Positions 6,354 through 62,021 of a stretch of 64,000 bases of DNA are shown in pieces. The position numbers and the translations under genes were made by a program. Source of the DNA: Acidimicrobiia bacterium (GTDB taxonomy: Bacteria; Actinomycetota; Acidimicrobiia; Acidimicrobiales; Aldehydirespiratoraceae); assembly GCA_022820805.1 (NCBI GenBank), contig JAJEEV010000014.1:62001-126000 (forward strand), read 5' to 3'. The notes below the pieces were generated by a model. That model had not been told where the DNA came from. It ran no database searches and worked only from the letters and a program-made list of their open reading frames with translations. Position 1 is the stretch's first letter; every line of letters starts with the position of its first letter.

Positions 6354-6414
6354 GGGTGTCCCTGTCGTGTCGGGTCGTGGCGCTGGGGCGAACGACATCG
6401 GGTGACGCTCATAT

Positions 6415-6422: not shown

Positions 6423-6478
6423 GAATTGCCGGTCGGTCTCGCTTGCGGCCGGCGCGCCGGGCACGAACAGGAGCCGTC

Positions 6479-6673
6479 ATGAGGGTCAGGGTTCTGGATG
6501 ATGTCTGCCAGGGCCACACCCTGTGCGCGATGGCCGCACCGGAGATCTTCAAGCTCCGTGAGGAGGACGGCCACTCCTACGTCGAGTCCGACGAGGTTCC
6601 CGATGACAAGCGGGATGCGGTGCGGCGGGCCGAGATCGGCTGCCCCGAGCGCGCCATCGTCGTCGAGGACTAG
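6479..6673 (+). CDS. Small [3Fe-4S] ferredoxin (P450-associated type)
   Basis: 64 residues with three cysteines in the CYP-ferredoxin pattern: Cys10-x5-Cys16 (CQGHTLC) and Cys55 followed by proline (GCPE). A His replaces the usual second Cys of a 4Fe cluster, which is typical of [3Fe-4S] ferredoxins that pass electrons to cytochrome P450. The ATG at 6479 is chosen over an upstream in-frame ATG because AGGAG precedes it at the right distance. The likely client is the P450 at 31519-32730, which carries the same type of upstream site, although the two genes are 25 kb apart. No ferredoxin reductase is visible in the window. Confidence 0.9.
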   Translation: MRVRVLDDVCQGHTLCAMAAPEIFKLREEDGHSYVESDEVPDDKRDAVRRAEIGCPERAIVVED

Positions 6674-6685
6674 AGGACCGGGGGA

Positions 6686-7174
6686 CTAGTCGCGCAGGCG
6701 CACCACCGCGTCGATCTCGACGCTGGCCCCGCCCGGCAGCGCGGCGACCCCGATGGCCGAGCGGGCCGGCAGGCGGTCCTGGCCGAAGATGTCGCGCAGC
6801 ACCTCGGAGGCCCCGTTGATCACGGTGGGTGCCTGCATGAAGTCGGCGCGGCAGCGCACGAAGCCCATCAGCTTCACGAACCGGTCGACCCGGTTGAGGC
6901 TCCCGCCCAGCGCGCCCTTGAGGTTGGCGAGGGTGCACACCATGGCCAGCGCGGCCGACTTCTGGGCGTCCTCGATGCTGATCTCGTCGCCGACCGACCC
7001 GGCGTAGACCATCTTCCACGGGGGCCCCTCAACGGCCACGATTCCCGAGGTGTAGGCGGTCGAGCCGTCGATGACGGCTCCCGGGAACAGCGGCTGGGCG
7101 GGCAGCGGCTCGGGTATGGCGATGCCGGCGGCGGCCGCCCGCTCGTCCCAGTCCGGCAGGGGGTCTGCAGCCAT
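6686..7174 (-). CDS. RidA/YjgF-family protein
   Basis: 162 residues. The C-terminal two thirds match the RidA (YjgF/UK114) fold, ending in PARSAIGVAALPGGASVEIDAVV, where the Arg and the VEI strand correspond to the imine-binding pocket. It is longer than canonical RidA (about 130 residues) because of an N-terminal extension. RidA proteins hydrolyse reactive enamines/imines, and divergent members act as lactone or carbamoyl-type hydrolases in catabolic operons. The ATG at 7174 follows GGGAGG by six bases; its operon partner upstream stops two bases before it, so the two are coupled. Confidence 0.85.
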   Translation of the reverse strand: MAADPLPDWDERAAAAGIAIPEPLPAQPLFPGAVIDGSTAYTSGIVAVEGPPWKMVYAGSVGDEISIEDAQKSAALAMVCTLANLKGALGGSLNRVDRFVKLMGFVRCRADFMQAPTVINGASEVLRDIFGQDRLPARSAIGVAALPGGASVEIDAVVRLRD

Positions 7175-26645: not shown

Positions 26646-28121
26646 CTACCCGTCGCGGGCGACCATCGGTATGAAGCCGGACACCGCGGTCCAGCAAGGG
26701 CAGCCGGCGTCCCATTGGATCGCCCTGTAGTGGTCCACCAGGGAGTGGTCGTTCGGGCCGAACGAGCCGGGTGCGACGCCCGCAGGGGTGAAGTCGCCGG
26801 CATTCTCGAGAGCGGCCACGTAGTTCTGCCGGGTCAGGTCGCCCGCCGCGCCGTGCAGACCGGCGAGCACGAGCGACAGGAGATCGCACGTCCTCAGGAT
26901 GCTGGCGTACTCGCCGGTCTCCGGGGCGCGCCTCTCGATGTCGGCGCCGGAGTACCGCTCGTAGTTGGACAGGCACGCCTCCGCCTCGTCGTTGACCATC
27001 CCGGCCGCGATCTCGCCGGCCCGCTTCATGGTCATGGCCAGCGTCCCGTCGTACTGCTCGGCGGGGAGGGTCTTCCCCGACACGTCCGCGGTCTGCTCTC
27101 CGTAGTCGGTGGACAGGTAGAGGGGCCGGTAGCCCTGGCTCTCGGCGAAGCCCATGACGCCCGCGAGGCTGGAGCCGCCCACCAGCGGAAGCGCAACGTC
27201 GACACCGTCGACGATGAAGCGCTGAACCGCGATGGGGTCCTCGGGACTGCCCACTCCCTCGCCTGACGTGGCTGTCTCCGAGGAGATCTCGTAGCCGGCC
27301 GCCGCCACCTGCTCGCGCATCTCCTCCACGCCCTCGTCGAGGCGGGTCTCGTAGTACATGCCGACGGTTCCCTCGAACAGGCCGCTGTCGATGGCCCACT
27401 GCGCATAGTTGCGCAGGTGCTTGCCGTGATCGGCGCGCAGCGTGAAGAACCAGGGCGCGCCCCGCTGGTACAGCGAGGGGGGAGCGCCGTCGGTGTCGAT
27501 GATGGGGATCTCGAACCGGGTGGCGAGGCACTCGGCGCCGACGGTGAAGCTGACGCTCGACACCGCCGCGAACACGTCGGCGTCCTGTGCGAAGGCGGTG
27601 CAGACACCGAGCTTCGCCGAGTCGCTGATGATGTTGTACTTGCCGAAGACGAGCTCCACGCCGATGCCCTCGGGCAGGAGCCCCTCCCGGGTCCACCGGT
27701 CGACCACAGCGAGGGCCTGCGCCTCGGGATCGCCGATGCCGAACTCGGGGTTCAGGACCGCGAAGGCCTCCAGGTCGGGGAAGGCCACGCCGATGCGCAC
27801 GATGCGGGCGGGGACAGTGGGGGCGGGCGCCTCGACTGCTTCCTCGGAGGGCTCGGCCGGTGCCGCGGCGGTGGTGGCGGGGGCGTCCTCCGTGGCCGGC
27901 TCGGAGGCAGGGGCCTCCGGTTGGGGCGTCTCGTCCTGGGAGCTGTCGGGCTGCTCGACCTCCGGCGCGGGGGCGGCCGGCTCCTCCTGCTGTCCGGCGG
28001 GCTGCTGTGCGGGCTGGCTGGCGGGCTCGTCACCGCCGGAGCCGCAGGCCGCGGCGATAAGGGCGAACAGGACCAATGGCGCCATCGAATGGAGCCAGTG
28101 CTTGCGTGCGGTCGGGTTCAC
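26646..28121 (-). CDS. ABC-type substrate-binding lipoprotein (LivK-like), orphan
   Basis: 491 residues. GTG start with GAGGAGCGG upstream and a lipobox IAAAC at about residue 26. A long Ala/Pro/Glu/Gln-rich tether runs to about residue 100 and is followed by a type-I periplasmic-binding domain (RIVRIGVAFPDLEAFAVLN). It is a clear paralogue of the protein at 2882-4387 and ends with the same Cys-x-Cys-Trp-Thr style segment (GCPCWTAVSG). No transporter gene is next to it. It is divergent from a TauD dioxygenase with a GTATAC-type site between, so binding protein and oxygenase may be co-regulated. Confidence 0.87.
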   Translation of the reverse strand: MNPTARKHWLHSMAPLVLFALIAAACGSGGDEPASQPAQQPAGQQEEPAAPAPEVEQPDSSQDETPQPEAPASEPATEDAPATTAAAPAEPSEEAVEAPAPTVPARIVRIGVAFPDLEAFAVLNPEFGIGDPEAQALAVVDRWTREGLLPEGIGVELVFGKYNIISDSAKLGVCTAFAQDADVFAAVSSVSFTVGAECLATRFEIPIIDTDGAPPSLYQRGAPWFFTLRADHGKHLRNYAQWAIDSGLFEGTVGMYYETRLDEGVEEMREQVAAAGYEISSETATSGEGVGSPEDPIAVQRFIVDGVDVALPLVGGSSLAGVMGFAESQGYRPLYLSTDYGEQTADVSGKTLPAEQYDGTLAMTMKRAGEIAAGMVNDEAEACLSNYERYSGADIERRAPETGEYASILRTCDLLSLVLAGLHGAAGDLTRQNYVAALENAGDFTPAGVAPGSFGPNDHSLVDHYRAIQWDAGCPCWTAVSGFIPMVARDG

Positions 28122-34444: not shown

Positions 34445-35284
34445 TCATTCCGCCCCACCCACCGTGATCCGGTGGAGTGTGCGTTCGGCATCGCCGTAGT
34501 CGTGAACCCCGTAGTGCATGGCGCACCGGTTGTCCCAGCAGATGACGTCGCCCGGCTGCCACTGGTGGCGGTAGACGTTGTCGGGGGTGGACGACTGCTC
34601 GTAGAGGAACCTGAGGATCGGCAGGCTCTCGGCCTCGGTCATGCCTTCGATGGCGACCATGGCCTCGCCGGGCCGGTTCAGGTAGAGGGCGGTACGTCCT
34701 GTTCCGGGATGAACCCGAGCGAGCGGGTGATGGTTGATCACCGGCTCCCGCTCGGCTTTGGGAAGCGTGTCGGAGGTGCCGGCCATCTTCTGGACGGCCT
34801 TCGGTCGGCTGCCCACGAACTTCGCCCGCCGGCCCGCGAGGAACTCCTTCATGCCGTCGGACAGTCGCTCGTAGGCGACGTACTGGTTCGAGAACATCGT
34901 GTCGCCACCGGTCTCGGGCAGGACATGGGCCCGAGCGACCGAGACCGCGGGCGGGGTGGACATGTGCGACCAGTCGGTGTGCCAGGCCTCGGCCGGAGCC
35001 TTGGCCTTCCCGAAGTTGGGCACGATGGCGATCTTGGGGAAGCCTTCGAGCGAGTTCTTCGCGTAGTACCAGGGCAGGAACGGCTCGCCGAACACCTCGG
35101 CCAGGCGCATGTGGTCGTCCGGCTCGAGGAGCTGGCCCCGCAGGATCAGGACGCAGTGGTTGAAAAGGGCCGACCGGAGCGCATCCGCCTCTGCCGCGGT
35201 GATGTCGGTGGTCAGGTCGATGCCGGAGAGGCTCACCCCGACCGATCCCGTGAGGGGTTGCAGGCTTGTCGAATTGTCCGTCAT
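34445..35284 (-). CDS. TauD/TfdA-family Fe(II)/2-oxoglutarate dioxygenase
   Basis: 279 residues. HxD is in WHTDWSHMST, the distal His in CAMHYGVHDYG, and ERTLHRIT supplies the 2-oxoglutarate Arg. Compared with the paralogue at 28291 the residues after HTD differ (WSH versus GSH), so substrate choice may differ. ATG 35284 overlaps the stop of the upstream amidohydrolase (ATGA). It is part of the long minus-strand operon of transporter cluster 1. Confidence 0.92.
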   Translation of the reverse strand: MTDNSTSLQPLTGSVGVSLSGIDLTTDITAAEADALRSALFNHCVLILRGQLLEPDDHMRLAEVFGEPFLPWYYAKNSLEGFPKIAIVPNFGKAKAPAEAWHTDWSHMSTPPAVSVARAHVLPETGGDTMFSNQYVAYERLSDGMKEFLAGRRAKFVGSRPKAVQKMAGTSDTLPKAEREPVINHHPLARVHPGTGRTALYLNRPGEAMVAIEGMTEAESLPILRFLYEQSSTPDNVYRHQWQPGDVICWDNRCAMHYGVHDYGDAERTLHRITVGGAE

Positions 35285-36240
35285 TGGCAGGAGTCGAGCG
35301 TACCATCCGCCACTTTCGCATCGAGGCGGTAGACGCGGGTAGCCGTGGCTGAGAACAGGGCTCGTTGCTCGATGGCCGTGAGCGGGGCGGTGATCTCGAG
35401 GTAGGCCTCGATGAGGGCGGCGTAGGTGCCGTAGAGGCGGTCGATGGGCCAGTTGGTGGCGAACATGGCCCTGTCGGGGCCGAAGCTGTCGATGCAGTGC
35501 TCGGCCCAACCTCGGATGCTGTCGGTGGTCCACTGCGGGTCGGCCCCGCTGGCCAGGGCCGAGATCTTGACCACGACGTTGGGCCGTGACGCGACCCTGG
35601 CGATGCCCCGGGACCATTCCGCGAAGTAGCCGCGGTCGCGCCGTTCGGGCTGGCCGGCGTGTCCGAGGATGATGGTGGCGTCGGGCCGCCGGTCGGCCAG
35701 GGCGCAAACCGCGTCGAACTTCGGGTAGGGCACCAGCACCTCGAGGCTCAGTCCGGCGTCGGCGAGCATGTCGAAGCCGGTCGTGAAGGCGTCGGTGTCG
35801 ATGGTTCGGGGCGAGAGCATGTCCCTGACGCCGCGCAGCAGCCGGTGGCCGGCATTGGCCTCGATCACCGATGCGATGTCGGCGTCGGCCGGATGGGCCT
35901 GGGCCACGATGGCGTCGGGTGATCCCTCCCGGTCGGCCATCGCCTGCAGCCAGGCGGTCTCCAGTCCGGGCGCCTCCTCCACGCAGGACTGGACGTGCAC
36001 GATCCTGGCCGGGGCGTACTCGCCGGCCTGGGCCCGCAATTCGGCCGCAGTGAACCGGGGGGCGTCGAGGCGGTGCATCCCCTTCAGGCGGGGATGGTCG
36101 AAACCCGCGTCGAGATACCGCCAGTGCAGACCCTCGACGCTGTGGTCCCAGTAGTGCACGTGGGTGTCGACGAACTCCAGCGCCCGGCGACCGGCAGGCC
36201 CGGCGCCCGGTGCGTCGCCGGGGCCGCGCGATCCGCTCAT
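35281..36240 (-). CDS. Amidohydrolase / lactonase-like (COG3618 type)
   Basis: 319 residues. FVDTHVHYWD has a full HxH metal motif, GHAGQPERR and FATNWPIDRLYGTY complete the barrel; these are typical of fuconolactonase/rhamnonolactonase-like Amidohydro_2 members. Its paralogue is at 45925-46824. ATG 36240 overlaps the transporter stop (ATGA) and its own stop overlaps the TauD start, so transport and hydrolysis are tightly co-expressed. Likely opens a lactone or cleaves an amide/ester of the imported compound. Confidence 0.87.
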   Translation of the reverse strand: MSGSRGPGDAPGAGPAGRRALEFVDTHVHYWDHSVEGLHWRYLDAGFDHPRLKGMHRLDAPRFTAAELRAQAGEYAPARIVHVQSCVEEAPGLETAWLQAMADREGSPDAIVAQAHPADADIASVIEANAGHRLLRGVRDMLSPRTIDTDAFTTGFDMLADAGLSLEVLVPYPKFDAVCALADRRPDATIILGHAGQPERRDRGYFAEWSRGIARVASRPNVVVKISALASGADPQWTTDSIRGWAEHCIDSFGPDRAMFATNWPIDRLYGTYAALIEAYLEITAPLTAIEQRALFSATATRVYRLDAKVADGTLDSCQ

Positions 36241-39089
36241 CGCGGCTCGCCTCCTGTCGTGCTGCGGTCCTCGCCTGCCCCGGTCCCGGCGAATCGGGAA
36301 TCCCGGTGGGTGCCCATGTACGCCTCGACCACCCTGCGGTCCGTGTCGAGGATCGAGGGCGGGCCCGAGGCGATCAGGTCTCCGGCCTCCAGCACGTACA
36401 GGCGGTCGACCAGCGAGCGCATCATGGCAACGTCGTGGTCGATCACGATGACGGTTATCCCGAGGCGGGCCCGCAGGTCGGAGATGACCCGTACGAAGTC
36501 GTCGACCTCCCGGGGGCTCAGCCCCGCGGTCGGCTCGTCGAGCAGGACCAGATGGGCGTCCAGGGCCAGAGCGCAGGCCAGTTCGGCCAGGCGTCGGGTG
36601 CCGGTGGAGAGGTTGACGATCTGGTAATGGGCGTGCTCGCGGATTCCGAGATTCTCCAGCATCCGCAGCGCCGTCCGGTTGCGCTCGCGCTCGGAGCGGC
36701 GCGCCCCGGGGGTCCCCAGCAGCGCGGCAGCCAGGCGAGTCGGTTGCCGGCGCTCCAGAGCCAGGCTGACGGCGTCCACCAGCATCATGTCGTCGAACAG
36801 CCGGGCCTGCTGGAACGACCGGCCCAGTCCCAGCCGGGCCCGGCGGTGCGCAGGCAGCGAGCCGATGTCTCGACCGTCGAGCAGGACGGTCCCCGAATCG
36901 GGACGCTGATGTCCTGAGAGAACGTCGAACAGGGTCGTCTTGCCGGCACCGTTGGGGCCCATCACGCCGACGATCTCGTGGCCCCTCACATCTATGGACA
37001 CGTCGCGCAGGGCGTTCACGCCACCGTAGGACACCGATATCCGGTCGGCGACGAGCACTGGGTCTCCGTCTGGGCGCGGATCGGGGCGCGAGACGGGCTC
37101 GGACCCGGTCACCCTCCCGTCCTCGGGTGTTGCGCCGGCCGGTTCGCCTGCGGGCAGCAGTCCCCGGGTTACGGCAGCCTCGACCAGCTTGTCGCGGGTG
37201 GCGAACACCAGCGATGCCAGCCCGCCCGGCAGCAGGAGCAGCACGGCCAGCACCCCCATTCCCGACGACAGCAGACCCCAGTCCTCGCCGAGGATCCGGG
37301 GGATGCCCTGCACCCAGAAGGCCCCGAGCACCGCTCCGGTCATCGTGGTCACCCCGCCGAAGATCGCCATCACCACCAGCGACAGCGACTCTGCCGGACC
37401 GAACGTCCCGTCGAGGTCCCCGGCGAAGGTGACCAGCAGCCCGCCGTAGAGGAAGCCACCGCAGGACGCGATCATCCCCGAGACCACGAACGCCGCCAGC
37501 TTGGTCGTGCGGGGCGACACGGCCACGCTGGACGCCGACGGCTCGTTGTCCCTCACGGCGACCATCCTGCGGCCGAGGCCGCTCCGTCGCAGCCGGTGGA
37601 CCACGAACATTGCCACCACCAGCGCGCCCAGGCAGGCCCAGTAGTAGCGGATCTCGCTGTCGAGGCTGACCCCGCCGAAGGTGGGACGCGGTATCGACAT
37701 CGACGTGGCCCCGTCGTCGCCCCGATGGTTGAGCCAGTCCTGCTCCAGCAGCCAGCCGCTGGCCGCGACCGAGAAGGCGAGGGTGATCACGGCCAGGAAC
37801 AGTCCCCGGATGCGCAGCGCGGGCAGGCCGATCAGCAGTGCCACGGCCCCGCCCGCGACGGTGGCGATCACGATGGCGGGCCCGTGGGGGAGCCCGAGCT
37901 GGTAGAGGCGGCCCCCCAACGCCGCGCCGACGGCCACGAACGCGAACTGGCCGAGGGAGACCTGGCCCGCGAACCCGGTGAGCACCACCAGTGACAGGCC
38001 CATGACCGCGAAGAGGGCTACCGCGCCCAGGAAGAACTGCTCCGACGACGTCATGCGGGTCGGCAGGTACACGGCCACGGCCAGTGCGGTGCCCAGCAGG
38101 GCGACCTTGGCGGCCCGCACCCGGAAATGGGCCGCGAGGTAGGGCTTCAGGGGCACGATGGCGGCGGCCAGCGTCCAGGAGCTCTGCTCGGAGCCTCGCA
38201 GCACGGAGCCCAGACCCTTCTTCATCAGGAAGCTGCCCGCGATCGCGGCCAGCAGCACCAGATCGAGGGCGCCGCCGATCGGATAGTTCCACAGCACGAG
38301 CGCTTCGAGCACGCCGATGGCGATGCCGGCCACGAAGACCGACGACAAGCGGGTCAGCCCCCCCAGCATGGCGGCCGCCAGCGCCTTCAGCATGAGCTGA
38401 GGCCCCAGCGCCTGGGACAGCGCCAGCGGCCGGGTCGGGCCGATGAGGATGGCCGACACCCCGGCCAGTAGCCCGGCCGCGGTCCACACCGCGAACGACA
38501 CCCTGTCGATGGGCACCCCGGCGAGGCGGGCTGCGTCGGTGTTCTCGGCGGAGGCCCGGCTGGCCTTGCCCAGCCGGCTGCGTCCCAGGAACAGGGCCAG
38601 GACGACGGTCAGGATGGGGACGGCCACCAGGATGGTGAGCTGGCCCGGGCCGAGAAGGAGGTTGCCGACGCTGATGCGCCAGTCGAAGGGCGTCGGGTAG
38701 ATCTTGCCGATGAGGTCGCCGCCCTTGGGCAGCAGCGCCCCGCCGAAGAACAGCAGCTGCGAGGCGCCGATGGTGGCCACCAGCACGGTGAGGCGGGACG
38801 CAGAGCGCAGGGGCCGGATCACCAGGAACTCGAACAGCCCGCCGACGGCCGCGGCGACCAGCAGCGCGATGACCAGAGCGATGGCGTAGGGCCACCCGAG
38901 GTTGAGGGCGAAGATGGGGATCATCAGCGCGGCCAGCGCGCCCATCTCGCCGTGGGCGAAGTTGATGACCCGTGACGACCGGTAGACGAGGGTGATGCCC
39001 AGGCCCAGCAGCGAATAGGTCAGGCCGGTGATCACGCCGAGGATCACCACGTTGTGGGGGACCTCGAACCCGACAAGGGGAAGCGTCAT
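36237..39089 (-). CDS. LivH-LivM-LivG fusion (ABC importer permease, permease, ATPase)
   Basis: 950 residues carrying three functions in one chain. Residues 1 to about 295 are a LivH-type permease (GITLVYRSSRVINFAHGEMG). About 305-620 is a LivM-type permease (VVLTGFAGQVSLGQFAF, LPALRIRGLFLAVITLAF). After a Pro/Asp linker there is a LivG-type ATPase from about residue 675. Walker A is GPNGAGKTT (near 710) and Walker B is LVLLDEPTAGL; the signature loop is LSTGT instead of LSGGQ. ATG 39089 is chosen; it is preceded by a 17-bp direct repeat of the start region. The LivF subunit needed for a complete importer is only present as the MFS fusion two genes upstream. Confidence 0.92.
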   Translation of the reverse strand: MTLPLVGFEVPHNVVILGVITGLTYSLLGLGITLVYRSSRVINFAHGEMGALAALMIPIFALNLGWPYAIALVIALLVAAAVGGLFEFLVIRPLRSASRLTVLVATIGASQLLFFGGALLPKGGDLIGKIYPTPFDWRISVGNLLLGPGQLTILVAVPILTVVLALFLGRSRLGKASRASAENTDAARLAGVPIDRVSFAVWTAAGLLAGVSAILIGPTRPLALSQALGPQLMLKALAAAMLGGLTRLSSVFVAGIAIGVLEALVLWNYPIGGALDLVLLAAIAGSFLMKKGLGSVLRGSEQSSWTLAAAIVPLKPYLAAHFRVRAAKVALLGTALAVAVYLPTRMTSSEQFFLGAVALFAVMGLSLVVLTGFAGQVSLGQFAFVAVGAALGGRLYQLGLPHGPAIVIATVAGGAVALLIGLPALRIRGLFLAVITLAFSVAASGWLLEQDWLNHRGDDGATSMSIPRPTFGGVSLDSEIRYYWACLGALVVAMFVVHRLRRSGLGRRMVAVRDNEPSASSVAVSPRTTKLAAFVVSGMIASCGGFLYGGLLVTFAGDLDGTFGPAESLSLVVMAIFGGVTTMTGAVLGAFWVQGIPRILGEDWGLLSSGMGVLAVLLLLPGGLASLVFATRDKLVEAAVTRGLLPAGEPAGATPEDGRVTGSEPVSRPDPRPDGDPVLVADRISVSYGGVNALRDVSIDVRGHEIVGVMGPNGAGKTTLFDVLSGHQRPDSGTVLLDGRDIGSLPAHRRARLGLGRSFQQARLFDDMMLVDAVSLALERRQPTRLAAALLGTPGARRSERERNRTALRMLENLGIREHAHYQIVNLSTGTRRLAELACALALDAHLVLLDEPTAGLSPREVDDFVRVISDLRARLGITVIVIDHDVAMMRSLVDRLYVLEAGDLIASGPPSILDTDRRVVEAYMGTHRDSRFAGTGAGEDRSTTGGEPR

Positions 39090-39185
39090 GGCGGTCAACT
39101 CAACCCGTCGTCACTGGGTGACCGGCACTTGAGCCCATGGATGGGCGAGTTCGTGCTCGCGAAGACCGAAGGGGAAGCGTCATGG
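39075..39185. repeat. 17-bp direct repeat duplicating a gene start
   Basis: AAGGGGAAGCGTCATGG occurs at 39075-39091 and 39169-39185, 94 bp apart. The first copy contains the LivHMG start codon; the second overlaps the stop of the upstream membrane-protein gene. In the second copy ATGA would have been a normal stop-start overlap, so an insertion or duplication has separated the two genes. Confidence 0.75.
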
Positions 39186-39644
39186 GCAGGGGTTCTCGTG
39201 CTCGACGAAGGCGGCGTACTCGCTCAACTGCTCGGCGAAGTCGCGTTCGCTGATGCCGATCAACACCCCCACGAAGTTGGCGCTGGCCTTGGGAGCCAGC
39301 CGGGCGTCGCCCAGATCGACGAACGCGGGGGCCTTGGCCAGGTCGAGGCCGTCGCGATCGAGGGCGGCCACTCCCACGACGGGGCAGTAGGCGACATCCT
39401 CGGAGGTGTTGCGCACCGTGACCTGCACCGTGGCGGTCAACCCCTCGACGCGGACCCGCGGCTCGCCGACGTCGAGGACGGGGCGGTCATAGACCTGCTG
39501 GAGGCCCAGCACCAGGCCGACGACGAAGCCGGCGGTGATGAGGACGCCGAACAGCACCCGCCGTGTCCGTTCGTTCCACCATGGCCCCAGCAGCCGTCCA
39601 GCCACCCGAGCGCTCGTCTCCAGCAGGTCCGGTGATGAGCTCAT
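39180..39644 (-). CDS. Unknown single-pass membrane protein of the MFS-ABC cluster
   Basis: 154 residues. An N-terminal basic helix (PWWNERTRR) is followed by one strong membrane segment at about residues 30-50 (VLFGVLITAGFVVGLVLGL). The C-terminal domain of about 100 residues is predicted outside, rich in beta strands (VRVEGLTATVQVTVRNTS), with two cysteines (YCPVVG and NPCP) that could form a disulfide. ATG 39644 overlaps the MFS-LivF stop (ATGA). I do not recognise the family. Its position between the two halves of an importer suggests an assembly or accessory subunit; no equivalent is seen in cluster 2. Confidence 0.7.
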   Translation of the reverse strand: MSSSPDLLETSARVAGRLLGPWWNERTRRVLFGVLITAGFVVGLVLGLQQVYDRPVLDVGEPRVRVEGLTATVQVTVRNTSEDVAYCPVVGVAALDRDGLDLAKAPAFVDLGDARLAPKASANFVGVLIGISERDFAEQLSEYAAFVEHENPCP

Positions 39645-41845
39645 TCGTGGCTCTCCAGCAGCCGGAGGGCCAGAGCGTCGGCGTCGAGGGCCGAGGCGGG
39701 GCCCAGATCGCTCACCCGGCCCCGGTCCATGAAGAACACCGAGTCGGCGACGGACAGCGCCACCCCGATGGACTGCTCGACGAGCAGGATCGTGGTGCCG
39801 AGAGCGGAGATGCGCTCCACCACCTCGAGAAGCTCCACCGTCACCGTCGGGGCCAGGCCCAGGCTCAACTCGTCGATCAGCAGCAGGTCCGGTCCGGCCA
39901 CCAGGGCGCGCCCCAGGGCCACCATCTGCTGCTCGCCGCCCGAGAGCGTTCCCGCCCGTTGATCGAGCCGCCGGCCCAGAGCCGGGAACACGTCGAGCAC
40001 CTCGTCCATGCGCTCGGCGACGAGGCTCTGGCTCCCCGCGAACGGGTAGGCGCCGAACCAGAGGTTGTCGCTCACGCTCAGCGACGGGAAGATCGACTGC
40101 CCGGCGGCCATCAGGGTGATGCCGAGCTTGGCCCGCTGCTCCGGCGGTATGCCGACCAGGTCCTGGTCCCGGAAGAACATCTGGCCCGACTGGGCGTGCA
40201 GCAGCCCGCCGACGTTGGCCAGCAGGGTGGTCTTGCCCACCCCGTTGCGGCCCACCAGCGCGTGGCATCCGCCTTCGGGCAGCGTCATGTCGACGCCGAA
40301 CAGCACTTGGATCGGCCCGTAGGAGAAGTCCAGGGACTCGACCCGCAGCAACGGCTCGGCCCTCCCGGCAACCGGGGCATCGGTCCCGGACTCGCCGGTC
40401 GGTGCTGCGCCGGACGCGGTCGGCGGTCCCGTTGCCGTCCGGCCGGCGGTCTCACCTGCTTCGGCCAGCCTGGCGACGTGCAGCGCGTGCTCCTCGCGCA
40501 CCATGGCCTGCACGGCCTGCTCGTCGCGCCGGTAGCTGGCCAGCGCGAACGTGATCAGGATGAGTCCGGCCACCGCGGCCAGCGGTATCAGCGTCATGTA
40601 GGCGGTCCTGAGGTCGCTTGCGTCGGCGATGATGCCGTAGATGACCGGCGAGGCGGCCGAGGCCAGGCTCTGGGTGACCGCGTCCAGCGATGTGCCCCGG
40701 CCCCGCAGGTCGGGATGCAGCACATCGACCCGGGCCGCATTGAGCGGCGGGATGGCGGCCACCAGGAACAGGGCGCCGAAGGACAGCAGAACCAGCATCA
40801 GCGGCGTGTAGCTCACCAGGAACGCGGCGATGAACAGGGGTGCTGAGATCAGGCGGGCAATGCCGGCCACCCCGATGCGGGCCGAGGTGTAGCCGGAGTG
40901 GGTCAGGAAGTCGGCGAGGTTGCCGGCGGTCAGCACGCCCACGAGTCCGCCGACCGCCACCAGGCTCAGCGCGGTGGTGGCCTCGGCCACGTCCAGGTCG
41001 TGGTAGCGGATCAGGAACGTGGGAGTCCACACGCCGATGCCGCCGAAGAACAGGCTGCCGACCGTGGACGACACCAGGCTGGCCGTGTAGGAGCGGCAGC
41101 GCAGGATGACCTGGTAGGCGTCCACCACGGTGATGTTCTGGTACCTGGACGCGATCACGGTGCGCTCGTCGGCCTCCAGCCGCTGGTGGCGCCGCTCCTG
41201 GATGCCCCGCACGGGCTCGGGCAGCCGCCAGCTCAACAGGGCCACCGCGAACGCCGGCAGCGCGAAGAAGAAGAACGTCGCCCTCCACCCCCAGGCCTGC
41301 CCCATCAGCCCCCCGATGGGCAGCAGGAAGAACCCGGTGAGCTGGCCCATCTGGTAGATGCCCATCACCTTGGACCGCTGGTTGACCGGGTAGTAGTCGG
41401 CGAGCAGCGACTGCGAGGTCGGGTTGTCGCACGGATCCCAGAGGCCCAGCACCATCCTCCCGAGCAGCAGCATGATGAAGCCGCTGGCCATCCCGGTGAA
41501 GATCATGGTGATCCCCCAGAACGCGGTTCCCCACGCGATGATCCGGGTGCGGCTGTAGCGGTCGGCCAGCGCCCCGAAGGGCACCGTTCCGAGGGTGACG
41601 CTGATCAGGTACGACCCGCTGAGGATGCCCAGCGCGGTGTCGGACAGGCCGAACTCCCGCTTGAGCAGCGGGAACATCGACGACAGCAGGAACTGGTCGC
41701 TCACGTTGATCGTGTAGACGGCCGTGAGCAGCACCAGCGGCCATTTCGGGACGCCCACGAGCTTGCGGGTCACGTGGAACTTCGGCCGCGGCGTCAGTGA
41801 TGGCGTCAGCGCTGAGATGCGCTCAGCCGCGGCCGGTGTCAGCAA
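39641..41845 (-). CDS. MFS transporter fused to LivF-type ABC ATPase (cluster 1)
   Basis: 734 residues in one open frame. About residues 35-445 form an MFS permease with twelve hydrophobic segments and the loop motif GALADRYSRTR, resembling Spinster-like/sugar-acid MFS proteins (SDQFLLSSMFPLLKREFG). A polar linker of about 45 residues leads to a complete LivF-type ATPase: FSYGPIQVLFGV, Walker A GRNGVGKTT (near 530), signature LSGGEQQM, Walker B LLLIDELSLGLAP and the switch region VEQSI. DELS replaces the common DEPS. TTG start at 41845 after AGAAGG; a GTATAC-type site lies 44 bp upstream. First gene of the cluster 1 operon. An energy-coupled hybrid carrier, or a physical tether of an MFS to an ABC importer, are both possible. 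Confidence 0.92.
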   Translation of the reverse strand: MLTPAAAERISALTPSLTPRPKFHVTRKLVGVPKWPLVLLTAVYTINVSDQFLLSSMFPLLKREFGLSDTALGILSGSYLISVTLGTVPFGALADRYSRTRIIAWGTAFWGITMIFTGMASGFIMLLLGRMVLGLWDPCDNPTSQSLLADYYPVNQRSKVMGIYQMGQLTGFFLLPIGGLMGQAWGWRATFFFFALPAFAVALLSWRLPEPVRGIQERRHQRLEADERTVIASRYQNITVVDAYQVILRCRSYTASLVSSTVGSLFFGGIGVWTPTFLIRYHDLDVAEATTALSLVAVGGLVGVLTAGNLADFLTHSGYTSARIGVAGIARLISAPLFIAAFLVSYTPLMLVLLSFGALFLVAAIPPLNAARVDVLHPDLRGRGTSLDAVTQSLASAASPVIYGIIADASDLRTAYMTLIPLAAVAGLILITFALASYRRDEQAVQAMVREEHALHVARLAEAGETAGRTATGPPTASGAAPTGESGTDAPVAGRAEPLLRVESLDFSYGPIQVLFGVDMTLPEGGCHALVGRNGVGKTTLLANVGGLLHAQSGQMFFRDQDLVGIPPEQRAKLGITLMAAGQSIFPSLSVSDNLWFGAYPFAGSQSLVAERMDEVLDVFPALGRRLDQRAGTLSGGEQQMVALGRALVAGPDLLLIDELSLGLAPTVTVELLEVVERISALGTTILLVEQSIGVALSVADSVFFMDRGRVSDLGPASALDADALALRLLESHE

Positions 41846-41896: not shown

Positions 41897-41914
41897 AAAC
41901 TCGCTGTGGGGGCC

Positions 41915-43570
41915 ATGACCGTCGGTGAGCGACTGCTGGAGTTGATCGCCGGACCCGGGGCGGCGCTGTTCGGTGTTCCCGGCGGCCAGACCCTTCCCCT
42001 CTACGCAGCCTCCAGGGCGGCGGCGCTGCGCCACGTGGTCACCCGCGACGAGCGCAACGCGGTGACCGCGGCCGACGCCTTCGCCCGGCTCACCGGTGCC
42101 GTCGGCGTGTGCGACGCCACGGTCGGGCCGGGCGCCACCAACCTCGTGTCGGGACTGGCCGAGGCCCAGGCCTCGTCGATTCCTGTGGTCGCGCTGGTGG
42201 CCGACACCCGCCGCGACGCAGAGCACCTGCGGCGCCATTCGGTGGCCTCGCAGTCCTTCGAGCAGTCGGAGACCCTGGCGCCGGTCACCAAGTGGGTCGG
42301 ACGGGTCCATGAGTCGGCCGCGCTGGACGAGGTCGTGGACCAGGCGCTGCGAGTGGCCACGGCGGGCCGTCCCGGGCCCGTGGTGGTGTCGATACCCGAG
42401 GACATCTTCCTCGGCTCCGCCGACCCGTCGCGGCCGCGGTCGATCGCTGACCGTGACCGGCGGTTTCCCCGCCACCGGCCCCACCCGGAGCCGGAACTGG
42501 TCGAGGCCGTCGCGGCGCGGATCAAGACCGCCGAGCGGCCGGTGATCCTCGCCGGGGGAGGGGTCGTCTTCAGCGGCGCCGCGCTCGCCCTGTCCGCACT
42601 GGCGGAGGGATGCTCGCTGCCGGTGGTCACATCGCTGAACGGCAAGGGCGCCATCGACGAGCGCAACCGGTTGTCGGCCGGTGTCGTCGGGGGTTTCGGA
42701 TCCCAGCGAGGGAACCTGGTAGTGCAGGCCGCCGACCTGATCGTCGCGGTCGGCACCAAGCACTCCCAACTCGGTACCCACGGCTGGCGCCTGCCGTCGG
42801 CCGGCCAGACCGTCGTGCACGCCGACGTCGACGCCACCGAGATCGGCCGGGCCATTCCGGCCCACATCGGTGTGGTCGCCGACGCCCGATCGTTCTGCCT
42901 GAGCCTGGCCGAGGCACTGGAGGGCTGGCAACTCCCGGCCGCCCCGTGGATCGACGCCATCCGACCGGCCGAGGAATCAGCAGGCGACGGCGACGTGGTC
43001 CACCCCGCCGACGTGGTGGGCGCGCTGGACCGGCTGCTGGGCCCCGACGACGTGCTGGTCTGCGAGGCGTCGCTGTCGTCGGGATGGGCGGCCCGCTACT
43101 TCCGGGTCAAGCGAGCCGGGCCGGGGATGCTCGCGCCCCGCGGCCTGGCCGGGCTCGGCTGGGCTCCGGGGGCCGCCCTGGGCGCCCGCCTGGCTCGCCC
43201 GCAGGGGCGGGTGGTCGCCCTCACCGGTGACGGGGGATGGGGCTACGGCCTGATCGAGACCGAGACGGCATGCCGTTACGGTCTCGACATCACGACCGTC
43301 GTGCTCAACAACTCCTCGCTGGCGTGGATCCGCCACGTCGAGTCCCGCATGAAGATGCCCTACAGCACCGACTTCACCGATGTCGACTTCGTGGCGACGG
43401 CCCGAGCCATGGGGGCCGCCGGCCGGCGGGTCGAGCGCGCCGGGGGCGTGGAGGCGACCATCGCCGAGGCCCTGGAGACGCCCGGCCCCTCGGTGGTCGA
43501 GGCGATCGTCTCGCCGGAGGCGACGCCCATCGTCAGCTACGGAGCGGTCCGGCGAGCCGCCTATGGCTGA
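41915..43570 (+). CDS. Thiamine-diphosphate-dependent enzyme (acetolactate-synthase-like)
   Basis: 551 residues with the POX/ALS fold. The activating Glu is in VTRDERNAVTAADAFAR; the TPP motif begins GDGGWGYGLIET and ends VVLNNSSLAW. The N-terminal FGVPGGQTLPLY is typical of ALS-like paralogues. The protein diverges from the enzyme at 14517-16247 and is not repeat-extended. ATG 41915 after GGGGG; a GTG three codons earlier is less likely. Reaction type is decarboxylation or carboligation of an oxoacid, exact substrate unknown. Confidence 0.88.
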   Translation: MTVGERLLELIAGPGAALFGVPGGQTLPLYAASRAAALRHVVTRDERNAVTAADAFARLTGAVGVCDATVGPGATNLVSGLAEAQASSIPVVALVADTRRDAEHLRRHSVASQSFEQSETLAPVTKWVGRVHESAALDEVVDQALRVATAGRPGPVVVSIPEDIFLGSADPSRPRSIADRDRRFPRHRPHPEPELVEAVAARIKTAERPVILAGGGVVFSGAALALSALAEGCSLPVVTSLNGKGAIDERNRLSAGVVGGFGSQRGNLVVQAADLIVAVGTKHSQLGTHGWRLPSAGQTVVHADVDATEIGRAIPAHIGVVADARSFCLSLAEALEGWQLPAAPWIDAIRPAEESAGDGDVVHPADVVGALDRLLGPDDVLVCEASLSSGWAARYFRVKRAGPGMLAPRGLAGLGWAPGAALGARLARPQGRVVALTGDGGWGYGLIETETACRYGLDITTVVLNNSSLAWIRHVESRMKMPYSTDFTDVDFVATARAMGAAGRRVERAGGVEATIAEALETPGPSVVEAIVSPEATPIVSYGAVRRAAYG

Positions 43571-49867: not shown

Positions 49868-51565
49868 TCAACCCCGGCGGCGGACCAGGCGGCCGGGGAG
49901 CGCTCCGGTGTGCTCGCCGTTCTCGAGCAGCACCTCGCCGCCCACCACGGTGGCCATGATGCCCTCGGCTCGCTGGGTCAGCCGGGTGGCGCCGGCCGGC
50001 AGGTCGTGAACGACCTCCGGGACGCACGGCTCCAGGCGCTCTAGGTCGATGATGTTCAAGTCGGCCTCGAAGCCCTCGCGGACCAGCCCCCGGTCGGCCA
50101 TTCCCCAGATGCTCGACGGCACCAGGGTGATCATGCGAACCGCCTCCTCGATGGAGAACTCGGCGGCGTCGCGGACCCAGTGGCTGAGCAGGTAGGTCTG
50201 CAGCGACGCGCTGATGATCTGGCTCACGTGGGCTCCGGCGTCGGAGAAGGTCATGACCGTGCGCGGGTGGCGCAGCATCATCAGCACATCGTCGGGTTCG
50301 TCGTTGCTGGTGATCTGCAGGAAGAACGTGTCGAAGTCGGACTCCAGGCCCAGATCGATCATGGCCTCCACCGGATGCACGCCCCGGTCCGAAGCGACGC
50401 TGGCCAGCGTCGGCGAGGTGCCCCGGTCGCGCTGCATCACCACGATCCGCTCGAACAGCGGTTTGCGGGCCACCTCCTTGCCCAGCGAGAAGTCCATGCC
50501 GCTGAGCGACTCGACCAGCCTGGACCGCACCTCGGCGTCTCCGAGCGCGGCGGCCTGCTCGTCGAGGGGCCGGGCCCGCAGCTCGGCCCAAGCCGGGACC
50601 TTGTCGAAAGGCAGCCAGGTCTTGAAGTTGAACAGCGCGCCCGAGGGCATGCAGCTGCTCTGGCCCCACATCTGGGCCCCGTCACGGGCGGCGTCGTCGA
50701 GGAGCCGCAACAGCTCCTGCCAGCGGTTGGGATCGCCGAAGGTGGATATCCCGAAACTGACCGGCACCCGGTTGCTCACCGCTAGGCGCCGGAGGCGGCC
50801 CATGGCCTCGGCCCGGCCCTCGGGGTCGGTGGAGGCCATGACCGACTCGTTGGCCAGCTCGAACATCCCGCCGCCGGCGCCGGCCATGGCGGCTACCAGA
50901 CGCTCGACCTCGTCCCACGGCGCCACCCGGGAAGCCACCGGACGGCCCGACGGGGTGATGTGGTGGTGGCTCCTGGAGGTCGTGAAGCCCAGCGCCCCCG
51001 CGCTCAGCCCGGCCCGCAGCTCGCGCTCCATGGCTTCCAGATCGTCCTCGGTCGCCTCCGACTCGAAGGCCCGCTCACCCATGGCATAGGTCCTCAGGGC
51101 CGAGTGCCCCAGGTAGGAGCCGACGTTGATCCCCTTGGGCAGGCGGTCGAACGCGTCGAGGTACTCCGCGAAGGTCTCCCACTCGAAGTGCACGCCGGCG
51201 CCCAGCGCCGCGGCCGGGATGTCCTCGGCCTTCTCGAGGTTGTCGATCACGAGTTGCTCCTGCCCGGACCGGCACGGGGCCAGCGTGAAGCCGCAGTTGC
51301 CCACCACCACGGTGGTCACCCCGTGCCAGCACGACGACGTTCCCAGCGGGTCCCAGAAGAACTGGGCGTCCATGTGGGTGTGCCCGTCGATGAAACCCGG
51401 CGTGACGATGTGGTCGGAGGCGTCGATCTCGCGGGCGCCCCGGCCCTCCACCGCGCCGACGGCGACGATCTTGCGGCCCGACACGGCCACATCGGCGGGA
51501 CGGGCCGGCATCCCGCTGCCGTCGACGACGATGCCGTTGCGGACGACCAGGTCGTGGCTAGCCAT
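49868..51565 (-). CDS. N-acyl-D-amino-acid deacylase-like amidohydrolase
   Basis: 565 residues of the composite-domain amidohydrolase family (D-aminoacylase/dihydroorotase-like). The N-terminal VVRNGIVVDGSGMPARPADVAV sandwich leads to GFIDGHTHMDAQ with HxH, then VVVGNCGFTLAPC, and a C-terminal FEADLNIIDLERL segment closes the sandwich. Hydrolysis of an N-acyl or cyclic amide bond is expected. ATG 51565 with GGGAGAC upstream. It follows transporter cluster 2 in the same direction and may act on the imported compound. Confidence 0.88.
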   Translation of the reverse strand: MASHDLVVRNGIVVDGSGMPARPADVAVSGRKIVAVGAVEGRGAREIDASDHIVTPGFIDGHTHMDAQFFWDPLGTSSCWHGVTTVVVGNCGFTLAPCRSGQEQLVIDNLEKAEDIPAAALGAGVHFEWETFAEYLDAFDRLPKGINVGSYLGHSALRTYAMGERAFESEATEDDLEAMERELRAGLSAGALGFTTSRSHHHITPSGRPVASRVAPWDEVERLVAAMAGAGGGMFELANESVMASTDPEGRAEAMGRLRRLAVSNRVPVSFGISTFGDPNRWQELLRLLDDAARDGAQMWGQSSCMPSGALFNFKTWLPFDKVPAWAELRARPLDEQAAALGDAEVRSRLVESLSGMDFSLGKEVARKPLFERIVVMQRDRGTSPTLASVASDRGVHPVEAMIDLGLESDFDTFFLQITSNDEPDDVLMMLRHPRTVMTFSDAGAHVSQIISASLQTYLLSHWVRDAAEFSIEEAVRMITLVPSSIWGMADRGLVREGFEADLNIIDLERLEPCVPEVVHDLPAGATRLTQRAEGIMATVVGGEVLLENGEHTGALPGRLVRRRG

Positions 51566-51634: not shown

Positions 51635-54538
51635 TCACAGTTTCCCGTCGGGCGGCGGGGACGGCGGGGACTCGCGGTCCCGGGCCGATCCTCGGGCGTC
51701 GCTGCGCAGGATGGCCCGCTCGTCGGTGCCAAGGTAGCTGGCGATCACCCCGGGATCCGACCTGACTCCGGCGGGGGAGCCCTCTGCGATCACCCGGCCG
51801 GCCTCGAGGCAGTAGACGCGGTCGCTGATGGACATGATCAGCGGCATGTCGTGCTCGATGACCAGCATGGAGGTGGCCAACTCCCGCTGGACGGCCACCA
51901 GGAGCTCTCCGAAGGCCTCGCTCTCGCGCTGGGCCAGGCCTGCGGTCGGCTCGTCGAGGCATAGCATCTTGGCGTCGAGCGCCATCAGGTCGGCCAGCTC
52001 GACGATGCGTCGAGTGCCGGTCGACAGATCGACGATGAACTCGCGGGCGTAATGGCCCAGCCCGAAGAAGTCGATGAGCTCGTCCGCCTCGGCGGCGCGG
52101 TCCCGAGCCAGCCGGCGAGCCCCCGGCAGCCCCAGGGCAGTGCCGATGAACGGGGTCCGGCCCCGGGCTTCCAGCGCCACCTGGACCGTCTCCTGGACGG
52201 TCAGCTCCGGGAACAGCCGCGCCGTCTGGAAGGTCCGTCCCAGCCCGTGGCGGGCCCTGGCGGTCACGCTCAGAGACGACACGTCCCGCCCGAGCAGCTC
52301 GACCGTGCCCCGTGAGTCGACATGGCCGCCGACCGCGTTGACGAAGGTGGACTTGCCGGCCCCGTTGGTGCCGATCAGCCCCACGATCTCGCCGTCCATC
52401 ACGTGAAGATCCACGTCCGAGACGGCCCGGATGCCGCCGAAGTTGACGGTGACGTCACGGGCTTGCAGCACGGCGCGGCTGTCGTCCGCAGCGTCGTCGG
52501 GGCCCGGGCCGCGCTCGCTCGACAGCCGTGTCGCGAGCCGTCGCCCGGCGGGATCCGCCGCCGCCTCCGCGGCGGGCTGCGGCTCGGCGTCCGGCAGTCG
52601 CTTGAGGGCCCAGTCGTAGACCACCTTGCGGGCCGCGTAGCCGATCTGGGCGAACCCGCCGGGGAAGTACATCAGGATGATGAGCATACCGACGCTGGAG
52701 GTGAAGAGCGGGACCAGCTCGTTGCCGGGGAAGAACGCGGGCAGCCCGATGACCCACAGCGCGCCGACGAGGGGGCCCGACAGCGAGCCGAGCCCGCCTA
52801 TCACCAGCATGGCCACCAGCTGCAGCGAGTCGTCGATCAGGTAGTAGCGCTCGTTGAAGGGGATGTTCTGGAACAGGCCCCCCAGCAAAGCTCCGCCGAG
52901 GGCCGCGATCCCTCCGGCGAGGGCGAACGCCACCAGCTTCGACCGGCTCGGGCTGATGGTGTAGGCCGACGCCGCGTCGGGGTTGTCGCGCACCGCGATC
53001 GTGGACCGGCCGATCCCGCTGTTGCGGAGCCTGATCACCAGGACGAACACGACGATCAGGATGGCCACGCAGAAGTAGTAGTAGGCCCGCTGCGCGCTCA
53101 TGTCCAGACCGAAGATCGTGCCCCGGCGGAACGACACCGAACTGGTGTTGCCGTCGCTGAGGATCGGTTGGCGGTAGATGTACTGCTGGGCCGCAATGGC
53201 GAGCATGAAGGTGATCACGGCCAGGTGAAGGCCGCGCACCCGCAGCGCGCCCAGGCCCACCAGCACGGCCACGCCGGCCATGGCTGCGGCCGAGATCGCG
53301 ATGGCAGCCAGGTAGGGGAGGCCGGGTGCCTCGAAGTCGACGATCCAGACGTCCATCTCCAGGCCGCGGTTGAGCGCAGCCGCCAGCAGCGCGCCCAGGC
53401 CCGCGAAGGCCATCTGGGCCAGCGACAGCTGTCCGGCCCAGCCGGTGATGACGGTGAGCGACAGCGCGCAGATCGCATAGCAGACGATGCTGGCGTACAG
53501 GAGGTGGCGGCTGGGACGGGTCACGACGACGGGCAGGAGCACCGCGGCGACCAGGATCAGGGTCCCCGCGAGGCGCGGCATCCGGCGGATCCACCAGATC
53601 TGCTGGACCTGCTCCGGTGGACGCCGCACCTTCGGCGCGAACGCGAAGCTGACGTCGTCGCTGCCGGAGCGGCTCTGCCGGTAGATGATGGCCACCACCA
53701 CGACGAAGCCGATGAGGTCGAACAGCCCCAGCTCCGTCAGGAAGTTGAACCTCAGCACGGCCTCGGCCACGCCGCTCAGCGCGCCGAAGGCGACGGCCCG
53801 CCCGAACGACCGCTGGCCGGCCAGCACGAAGGCCAGCATCGCCCGGGCCATGGTGAGCATCCCGAGGTTGTCCAGTCCTGCGGGGCTTCCGACCTGGGCC
53901 GACAGCAGCATGATCGACACGGTCGACAGCAGCCCGGCGATGGTCCACACGAACGTCGAGACCATCTTGGGGTTGATGCTCGACAGCCGTGACAGTGACG
54001 GATTGTCGGCCGAGGCCTCGACGGCCCGGCCGAACGTGGTGCGCCGCAGCATCCAGCCCAGGGCCAGGGCGCACGCAGGCACGACGATCAGGATGCTGAG
54101 CTGCGGTCCGGTGATCCGCAGGCCCAGCACGTCCTCGAAGACACCCGAGACGGCGGTCGGGTACTTGTTGCCCCTCATGTTGATCTCGGGGTAGGAGCCG
54201 CTGATCCCCTGGGCCAGCTGGGCGACCCCGACGGTGGCCATGAGCATGATCACCCGAGGCGAATGGAACAGGCGCCGCACCACCACCAGGTCGACGACCG
54301 TTCCGAACAGGGTGCCGGTGGCGAGGCTCAGGGCCAGGGCCAGCCAGAACGGGAAGTGGTAGTTGAGCACCAGCAGCGCCAGCAGCGACGCGCCGACCAG
54401 GCCCATGTTTCCCACGGCCAGGTTCACGACCCGGGTGGAGCGATAGACCAGGACCAGGCCCATGGCCAGCAGGCCCGTGACCAGCCCGTTCACCAGCCCG
54501 TTGAAGACCAGCTGCGATGTCAGCCAGGCGGCAAGCAT
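51635..54538 (-). CDS. LivH-LivM-LivG fusion (ABC importer), cluster 2
   Basis: 967 residues with the same order as cluster 1. LivH is about 1-290 (GLVLVYRSTRVVNLAVGNMG), LivM about 320-640 (VITGWAGQLSLAQMAF, GALRVRGLHLAVITFML), and LivG about 690-945. Walker A is GTNGAGKST (near 724), the signature LSTGT and Walker B MLCLDEPTAGLAQRE. The two fusions are diverged across their length, so this is not a recent duplication. ATG 54538. Stop-to-start gap of 29 bp from the MFS-LivF gene. Confidence 0.92.
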   Translation of the reverse strand: MLAAWLTSQLVFNGLVNGLVTGLLAMGLVLVYRSTRVVNLAVGNMGLVGASLLALLVLNYHFPFWLALALSLATGTLFGTVVDLVVVRRLFHSPRVIMLMATVGVAQLAQGISGSYPEINMRGNKYPTAVSGVFEDVLGLRITGPQLSILIVVPACALALGWMLRRTTFGRAVEASADNPSLSRLSSINPKMVSTFVWTIAGLLSTVSIMLLSAQVGSPAGLDNLGMLTMARAMLAFVLAGQRSFGRAVAFGALSGVAEAVLRFNFLTELGLFDLIGFVVVVAIIYRQSRSGSDDVSFAFAPKVRRPPEQVQQIWWIRRMPRLAGTLILVAAVLLPVVVTRPSRHLLYASIVCYAICALSLTVITGWAGQLSLAQMAFAGLGALLAAALNRGLEMDVWIVDFEAPGLPYLAAIAISAAAMAGVAVLVGLGALRVRGLHLAVITFMLAIAAQQYIYRQPILSDGNTSSVSFRRGTIFGLDMSAQRAYYYFCVAILIVVFVLVIRLRNSGIGRSTIAVRDNPDAASAYTISPSRSKLVAFALAGGIAALGGALLGGLFQNIPFNERYYLIDDSLQLVAMLVIGGLGSLSGPLVGALWVIGLPAFFPGNELVPLFTSSVGMLIILMYFPGGFAQIGYAARKVVYDWALKRLPDAEPQPAAEAAADPAGRRLATRLSSERGPGPDDAADDSRAVLQARDVTVNFGGIRAVSDVDLHVMDGEIVGLIGTNGAGKSTFVNAVGGHVDSRGTVELLGRDVSSLSVTARARHGLGRTFQTARLFPELTVQETVQVALEARGRTPFIGTALGLPGARRLARDRAAEADELIDFFGLGHYAREFIVDLSTGTRRIVELADLMALDAKMLCLDEPTAGLAQRESEAFGELLVAVQRELATSMLVIEHDMPLIMSISDRVYCLEAGRVIAEGSPAGVRSDPGVIASYLGTDERAILRSDARGSARDRESPPSPPPDGKL

Positions 54539-58225: not shown

Positions 58226-58296
58226 GTCTCCTCCCATCCATGTGAGTCCGCGGGCAGGGCGGTCCCTGCTGACGGATTGTCCGTACTGCAGAATTT

Positions 58297-61996: not shown

Positions 61997-62021
61997 GCCC
62001 ACCGCCCCAGCCCGGCCCACA

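Follow-up and report, generated by a model that had tools for sequence, protein, structure and literature searches.

A Spns-like MFS carrier joined to the LivF ATPase of a Liv-type importer in an acidimicrobial genome, and a wider family of MFS-LivF fusions

The stretch analysed here (the window; 64,000 nucleotides, positions 62,001 to 126,000 of contig JAJEEV010000014.1, assembly GCA_022820805.1, from an Acidimicrobiia bacterium of the Aldehydirespiratoraceae) carries, in the gene cluster called cluster 1, a gene that joins a major facilitator superfamily (MFS) carrier to a LivF-type ATP-binding cassette (ABC) ATPase. An initial annotation of this DNA, which named no strand, had proposed that a single continuous frame encodes a complete 12-segment MFS carrier followed by a complete LivF with all nucleotide motifs. 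The gene lies on the minus strand, which is open for 734 codons from a TTG start at 41845 to a stop at 39643-39641; the plus strand of the same interval has stops in the fusion frame, and the GC content per codon position backs the frame proposed. The gene and its parts are:

39641..41845, minus strand: MFS-LivF fusion, 734 aa (open frame, Pfam, NCBIfam, AlphaFold2 [AF2])
40538..41746, minus strand: MFS (Spns-like) half, residues 34-436 (Pfam, AF2); nearest solved relatives HnSpns and SPNS1
40352..40537, minus strand: linker, residues 437-498, with a helix at 438-471 and disorder at 472-495; ratio of nonsynonymous to synonymous substitution rates (dN/dS) 0.35-0.80 (AF2, dN/dS)
39644..40351, minus strand: LivF ATPase half, residues 499-734 (Pfam, NCBIfam, match to 1ji0 with E 5.6e-53, motifs)

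Pfam recognized both domains in the product, MFS_1 (E 6.3e-49, best stretch residues 42-312) and ABC_tran (E 8.5e-24, residues 517-659). The top NCBIfam matches of the fused ATPase were UrtE and LivF, both below their curated cut-offs, and the LivF half contains the Walker A (GRNGVGKTT), signature (LSGGEQQ) and Walker B (IDELSLGL) motifs. In the AF2 model (69 sequences, mean pLDDT 80, pTM 0.69) the helices read as 12 membrane helices at residues 34-436, followed by one helix of 34 residues, disorder at 472-495 and, from residue 500, an ABC fold. Since a crude hydropathy scan (threshold 1.5) flagged only 7 segments, the count of 12 is taken from the model and the MFS family match. The frame, the carrier and the motifs are thus as first described.

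The cluster-1 MFS was found in 5 of 16 genomes of the genus (its own included), every time in a fused frame, and the other 11 gave no match. All five proteins have the LivF Walker A, Walker B and signature motifs. Across these orthologues dN/dS was 0.06-0.13 for the MFS half, 0.11-0.18 for the LivF half and 0.35-0.80 for the linker, and in 10 of 10 pairs the MFS value did not exceed that of LivF; both halves are under purifying selection. The initial annotation had considered that this locus might be the sole exception among relatives with separate parts. This is not the case, because four congeners are fused, as were the MFS of 107 of 107 uncut frames of the wider family described below (best-scoring loci; 10 free MFS were found later). 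Gene order, including a candidate lipoprotein gene, is kept in the relatives G008 and G010. An internal start yielding a free LivF was considered and rejected: in the window a TTG follows GGGAGGG, but three of the five orthologues have CTG.

The genome holds two further MFS-LivF fusions, one in the window at 54568-56736 (cluster 2) and one on contig 42; this third fusion (L009 2140-6342) comes with a divergent substrate-binding protein (SBP), and its neighbouring frames resemble, by eye, xerC, dprA and comM. Both belong to a wider family, for which we built a profile from 18 MFS domains, 16 of them from trifusions (MFS-LivF-LivG in one frame). In a sample of 296 genomes across the phylum the profile matched 16, six of which belong to other classes; in a sample of 198 genomes across the order it matched 84, spread over 60 of 134 genera, and these order matches were not all annotated. 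In the GTDB collection, searched by one peptide pattern, the profile confirmed 147 relatives, and we kept the best 80. The 110 loci of the best 80 and the phylum sample comprised 88 MFS-LivF-LivG, 19 MFS-LivF and 3 cut by the locus end, a count biased towards trifusions by the make-up of the profile and the use of best matches. All 107 uncut frames have the MFS first and LivF second. At 79 of the 80 best loci LivM precedes the MFS by no more than 600 bases, the remaining one being cut by a contig end, and the commonest layout at the best-scoring loci is a LivH-LivM gene adjoining an MFS-LivF-LivG gene. The relatives are mostly titled Acidimicrobiia or Actinomycetota, and include the named strain Ilumatobacter nonamiensis YM16-303 (L067); three odd labels (Acidobacteria, Euryarchaeota, Bifidobacterium) may be mislabelled bins. 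A search of plasmids with one trifusion MFS gave no match at 1e-20.

The two kinds of fusion differ in the joint. By our own measure, the end of the MFS profile lies 83-91 residues from the start of LivF in the 5 cluster-1 rows and 43-52 in 115 of 115 other fused proteins. The wider-family joint is short and helical, with a mean share of the commonest residue of 0.64, against 0.67 in the C-terminal half of the MFS and 0.39 in the LivF-LivG linker (58 rows). Being short, helical, near-fixed in length and conserved, it makes a tighter coupling more plausible in the wider family. The best fold matches of the trifusion model (58 sequences, pLDDT 88) were tandem ATPases, the A2 component of the methyl-coenzyme M reductase activation complex and then the Dpp and Opp importer ATPases. 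Among the 50 chains listed in the fold searches with the window fusion or the trifusion, none matched credibly across both halves.

The commonest family flanking the wider-family fusions occurs at 55 of the 80 loci, 53 of the 80 having more than 3 kb downstream. Its representative (L064 3399-5258) matches Peripla_BP_6 at 23.4 bits, under the cut-off, and looks membrane-anchored, so the SBP of trifusion loci may be tethered too. The next two flanking clusters (39 and 21 loci; minus strand) may be mirror frames. Liv sets without an MFS match also occur, as LivF with a separate LivHMG (L201), LivH-LivM with a separate LivF-LivG (L204; LivF-LivG at 4715-6757, and also at L195 499-2349) and LivH-LivM-LivF-LivG in one frame (L205 1647-6611). 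One congeneric genome has a LivF preceded in frame by some 430 hydrophobic residues (L197 1429-3474 and L202 2352-4397, both on the minus strand). L197 was tried as an MFS-LivF fusion and left uncounted, as it gave no match to the Pfam MFS or fused-MFS profiles and a hhalign probability of 0.9%.

Among solved structures, the window MFS has its best sequence match in the Spinster carrier 6e8j (E 1.8e-19), and the wider-family profile likewise in a Spinster carrier (E 8.8e-29). In the fold search (Foldseek) DgoT and G6PT1 ranked above SPNS2 and HnSpns, all being close. In HnSpns the key residues are D41 and R42 in transmembrane helix (TM) 1 and R122 and E129 in TM4 (the proton switch), together with a D60-R289 extracellular latch and a D87-R91-D142 motif A relay (PMC9440201, PMC13192786). 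All 5 cluster-1 rows keep D41, D60, R122, R289 and the relay, and replace R42 by Gln and E129 by Asp. The TM1 D41-R42/TM4 R122-E129 set is therefore incomplete, and because this is a defining set we call the cluster-1 MFS Spns-like and not a member of Spns.

For comparison we counted residues in 120 distinct fused frames of the 144 found and in 19 free Spns-like frames (after removal of 3 that were cut and 5 belonging to a different kind of MFS). Gln at 42 is also present in 9 of the 19 free relatives, of which 8 have an acid at 129 and 13 an Arg at 289. The 93 trifusions all keep D41, R122 and the relay, with D60 in 5 and R289 in 9. At the E129 site Lys or Arg is found in 85 of the 93 trifusions, in 15 of 22 other fused wider-family members and in none of the 19 free Spns-like carriers.

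Free members of the wider family itself bear on how this is read. At least 13 of the matches listed in the order survey lay in frames shorter than 620 aa; 10 were fetched (three, on G017, G478 and G519, were left out), and none of the 10 shows a LivF in frame. The statement that every copy is fused, which the 107 of 107 had supported for the best-scoring loci, was thereby refuted as a general one. The stretch around one free MFS (L218) includes a LivH-LivM-LivF frame and 9 of the 10 stretches are without a Liv permease set, in a sample where the L220 frame enters Ns and some stretches are soon cut short by the end of a contig; generic ATPase profiles match weakly in L216 and L219. In a 73-row tree the free members nest among the fused ones, so the fused or free state has changed at least nine times, in a direction that the tree does not reveal. 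Lys or Arg at 129 was tried as a sign of fusion or ATP drive and rejected: it is present in 7 of the 10 free members, so it marks the clade and not the fusion, and independent pairs gave no link (1.0 against 1.2). If the latch is counted as kept where D60 goes together with Arg or Lys at 289, all 5 cluster-1 rows keep it, as do 7 of the 10 free wider-family members and, with HnSpns among them, 14 of 20 further free Spns-type rows; of the 38 fused wider-family rows of the tree, a single one does. A comparison of 7 independent pairs gave, as averages, 4.0 in which the latch opposed fusion and 0.3 in which it accompanied fusion (median p 0.125), too small a number of pairs for a decision.

Trees also bear on where the cluster-1 fusion came from. 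A 63-row MFS tree (5 cluster-1 rows, 24 of the 93 trifusions, 14 of the 22 other fused, 19 free and HnSpns) placed the cluster-1 MFS inside the free Spns-like carriers at 100/99, as did the 73-row tree, and holding all fused rows together was rejected by the approximately unbiased (AU) test (p 0.033). In the LivF tree (44 of 141 rows, chosen at random among most of the fused ones, and used for the placement of L172 and L173 only) the cluster-1 LivF was sister to the free LivF L173 at 98/95; the FG and MFG labels in this tree are unreliable because LivF and LivG profiles cross-match. Linker length also separates cluster 1 from the other fused proteins. By these sequence comparisons, the cluster-1 fusion is most likely an event separate from the wider family, and such joins would have arisen at least twice. 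The operon of the free LivF L173 (in L201) consists of LivF and LivHMG; an SBP with a weak match lies downstream, and nothing in the 9-kb stretch matches an MFS. An operon of this type is what one would expect cluster 1 to have descended from, prior to the addition of the MFS. Thus the protein labelled cluster 1 is indeed an MFS-LivF fusion, and most likely not simply another copy of the cluster-2 type.

The genes around the two fusions of the window are:

39180..39644, minus strand: small gene of 154 aa with one predicted TM helix and an ATG that overlaps the fusion stop (ATGA); 86-90% identity in four relatives
36237..39098, minus strand: LivH-LivM-LivG fusion, 953 aa (Pfam, NCBIfam)
35281..36171, minus strand: Amidohydro_2 hydrolase, the next gene (Pfam, NCBIfam)
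34445..35280, minus strand: TauD/TfdA-type dioxygenase (profile match)
26646..28121, minus strand: probable SBP of cluster 1, N terminus lipoprotein-like by eye (Peripla_BP_6, 40.2 bits)
41906..43570, plus strand: divergent enzyme dependent on thiamine pyrophosphate (TPP); adjacent in 3 of the 4 relatives compared, L056 being the exception
54568..56736, minus strand: second MFS-LivF fusion, 722 aa, wider family (Pfam, NCBIfam, MFS trees)
51635..54538, minus strand: LivHMG fusion of cluster 2 (Pfam, NCBIfam)
56729..58237, minus strand: SBP of cluster 2 (Peripla_BP_6 32.5 bits, cut-off 31.7)
49868..51565, minus strand: Amidohydro_3 enzyme after cluster 2 (profile match)

The 953-aa frame contains two BPD_transp_2 permease stretches (Pfam), and its LivG part is identified by Pfam and by its best NCBIfam match, the latter under the cut-off, so the LivHMG fusion predicted downstream is present. 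LivF matches in the window are confined to the cluster-1 and cluster-2 fusions, in agreement with the claim that the fused ATPase is the sole LivF of its operon. That the importer uses it is likely; that it must, as had been written, goes too far, because the genome holds other LivF genes. The product of 26646..28121 is probably the SBP of cluster 1: it passed the Peripla_BP_6 cut-off in the whole-genome search only and gave no hmmscan match, and its gene is syntenic with the fusion in G008 and G010, the two relatives whose stretch extends there.

The small one-TM gene, absent from the initial annotation, has a weak DUF4307 match under the cut-off. It occupies the gap after the fusion. A search for an RNA element in this gap gave no Rfam match at gathering scores over 30000-60000. 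Cluster 2 has no space for such a gene, its two genes being 29 bases apart. Upstream of 41845, on the minus strand, all 5 cluster-1 orthologues have TTAGTATACTGTTTGTGG, with the palindrome AGTATACT, a possible promoter or operator. Cluster 1 lies in a catabolic island (25907-46824) with three Amidohydro_2 genes, two TauD, a P450, the TPP enzyme, an MFS and a BNR-repeat protein, mostly retained in G008 and G010. That the Amidohydro_2, TauD, P450 and TPP genes serve organic-acid catabolism is only a guess.

The reading that we prefer, with middling confidence, sees in this protein the LivF subunit of a Liv-type (HAAT) importer that depends on an SBP, with an entire and functional Spns-like MFS added at the N terminus of LivF. 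It draws on the one open frame in five genomes, the purifying selection on both halves, the intact LivF motifs, the gating motif A retained by the MFS and the LivHMG partner just downstream. Since some relatives have the MFS alone and others have Liv genes without MFS, the halves look self-sufficient, and as both are intact here the joint looks like a tether between two working transporters. LivF would pair with LivG under LivH-LivM and power uptake of the SBP ligand, while the tethered MFS, held in the same complex at one per importer (1:1) and driven by a gradient, would move a second solute; this might be a product or counter-solute going outward, or the same compound by a low-affinity route. 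Fusion would ensure co-expression, a fixed ratio and proximity. In the wider family the parts would have been joined once or more (as MFS-LivF, or as MFS-LivF-LivG with LivH-LivM), and in the genus a free Spns-like MFS would have joined the free LivF of an operon of LivF and LivHMG.

Several observations weigh against this account. The near-fixed, conserved joint of the wider family exceeds the needs of a loose tether. The loss of the latch in the fused wider-family rows hints that fusion alters MFS function, though cluster 1 keeps its latch. The SBP of cluster 1 is a probable one. The separate origin is drawn from a p of 0.033 and from one cluster-1 LivF row beside one free row, on long branches, and the MFS may possibly have been swapped within an older fusion.

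Alternatively, the MFS half could be a sensor or gate (a transceptor), with little flux of its own, in which solute binding tunes the importer. The motif A relay is conserved in the wider family while the proton and latch sites drift, and the joint to LivF is near-fixed; we nevertheless consider this unlikely, since free MFS persist, 9 of the 10 fetched being without a Liv permease set in their stretch, which suggests transport. It is unlikely, too, that the MFS half serves chiefly for anchoring or to help assembly, the fusion being a neutral by-product of frequent gene fusion in the lineage. Liv genes in the order are indeed fused in many combinations, and the fused or free state changed at least nine times on the 73-row tree, but the MFS dN/dS at or below that of LivF in all 10 pairs, the retained motif A and the invariant order of MFS and LivF in 107 of 107 uncut frames speak against this reading.

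An MFS driven or gated by ATP, in which the LivF/LivG cycle would shift the conformations of the tethered MFS so that one ATPase pair serves two permeases, seems to us quite unlikely. Its case comes from the wider family, where the helical joint is short, near-fixed and conserved, E129 is Lys or Arg in 100 of 115 fused members and the latch is lost in 37 of 38 fused tree rows; however, Lys or Arg at 129 is shared by 7 of 10 free members and is not tied to fusion in the pairs. No ABC ATPase is known to couple in this way to an MFS. In the window protein the Asp at 129 (the proton sites thus being acidic), the retained latch and the long, partly disordered, fast-evolving tether lend no support to ATP-energised transport. 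For the wider family one may still conjecture, as a rather improbable variant, a hybrid primary and secondary transporter, in which a latch-less MFS sits on LivF-LivG through the near-fixed helical joint and would be opened outward by the ATP cycle that works LivH-LivM. An assembly or annotation artefact, which the 53-contig draft state of the window genome might suggest, is scarcely credible given the same fusion in four other assemblies and the wider family in the genome of the named strain Ilumatobacter nonamiensis YM16-303.

We class the protein as a component of a Liv importer that is built in a new way and carries a Spns-like domain; several known systems come close to it. The LivFGHMK or HAAT importers, which we take to be TC 3.A.1.4 in the transporter classification, resemble this system in that LivH, LivM, LivG and LivF are encoded together, an SBP is present in cluster 2 and probably in cluster 1, and the ATPase motifs are intact; they differ in that here LivF bears an N-terminal MFS and LivH, LivM and LivG form one chain. 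The Spns carriers (HnSpns 6e8j, SPNS1, SPNS2) are the best solved sequence matches for both fused kinds and share the motif A relay, but the MFS here shares its chain with an ABC ATPase; the window protein has R42 replaced by Gln and E129 by Asp, and in the wider family E129 is mostly Lys or Arg and the extracellular latch mostly lost. In the ArsAB arsenite pump the carrier can work alone on an ion gradient or together with an ATPase; it differs from MFS-LivF in that ArsA falls outside the ABC ATPases and ArsB outside the MFS, and there is no second permease. Msr(D), the ATPase partner in the Mef(A)/Msr(D) macrolide system, is now widely viewed as a ribosome-protection ABC-F protein.

PMC6079230 proposes joint action of the MFS protein of the Mef(A)/Msr(D) system with an ABC ATPase protein, the closest such proposal for an MFS. 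That system consists of two genes, serves efflux, has two ATP-binding domains in Msr(D) and includes neither Liv permeases nor an SBP, whereas the fusion described here has one LivF-type ATPase domain and no separate partner of that kind. NarK1 and NarK2 of Paracoccus denitrificans are fused, and their halves can act independently in complementary nitrate and nitrite fluxes (PMC7997004); they are a precedent for two complete carriers in one chain, with both halves MFS and no ABC ATPase, permeases or SBP. The family of sensor kinase-MFS fusions (TC 2.A.1.34), tabulated in PMC3924187, likewise joins an MFS to an ATP-using domain, which is a kinase and not an ABC ATPase.

We found no description of an MFS-LivF fusion among the papers listed by searches of open-access literature (subscription papers and the architecture listings of protein databases lying outside the search), nor in the available parts of PMC11004387, PMC3924187 and PMC7997004; automatic annotations of such proteins probably exist. 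Within the reach of these searches, the MFS-LivF join seems to be genuine, and a design for a membrane transporter that has not been described.

ABC transporters and MFS carriers count as separate superfamilies with different power sources, and here they are covalently joined. The joins span many genomes, that of the named strain Ilumatobacter nonamiensis included, in one repeated order and most likely through at least two separate events. They open to experiment the question of whether a secondary carrier can be gated or driven by an ATPase pair, or evolution has just built two-carrier complexes, and the free and fused natural versions of the same MFS offer a ready comparison.

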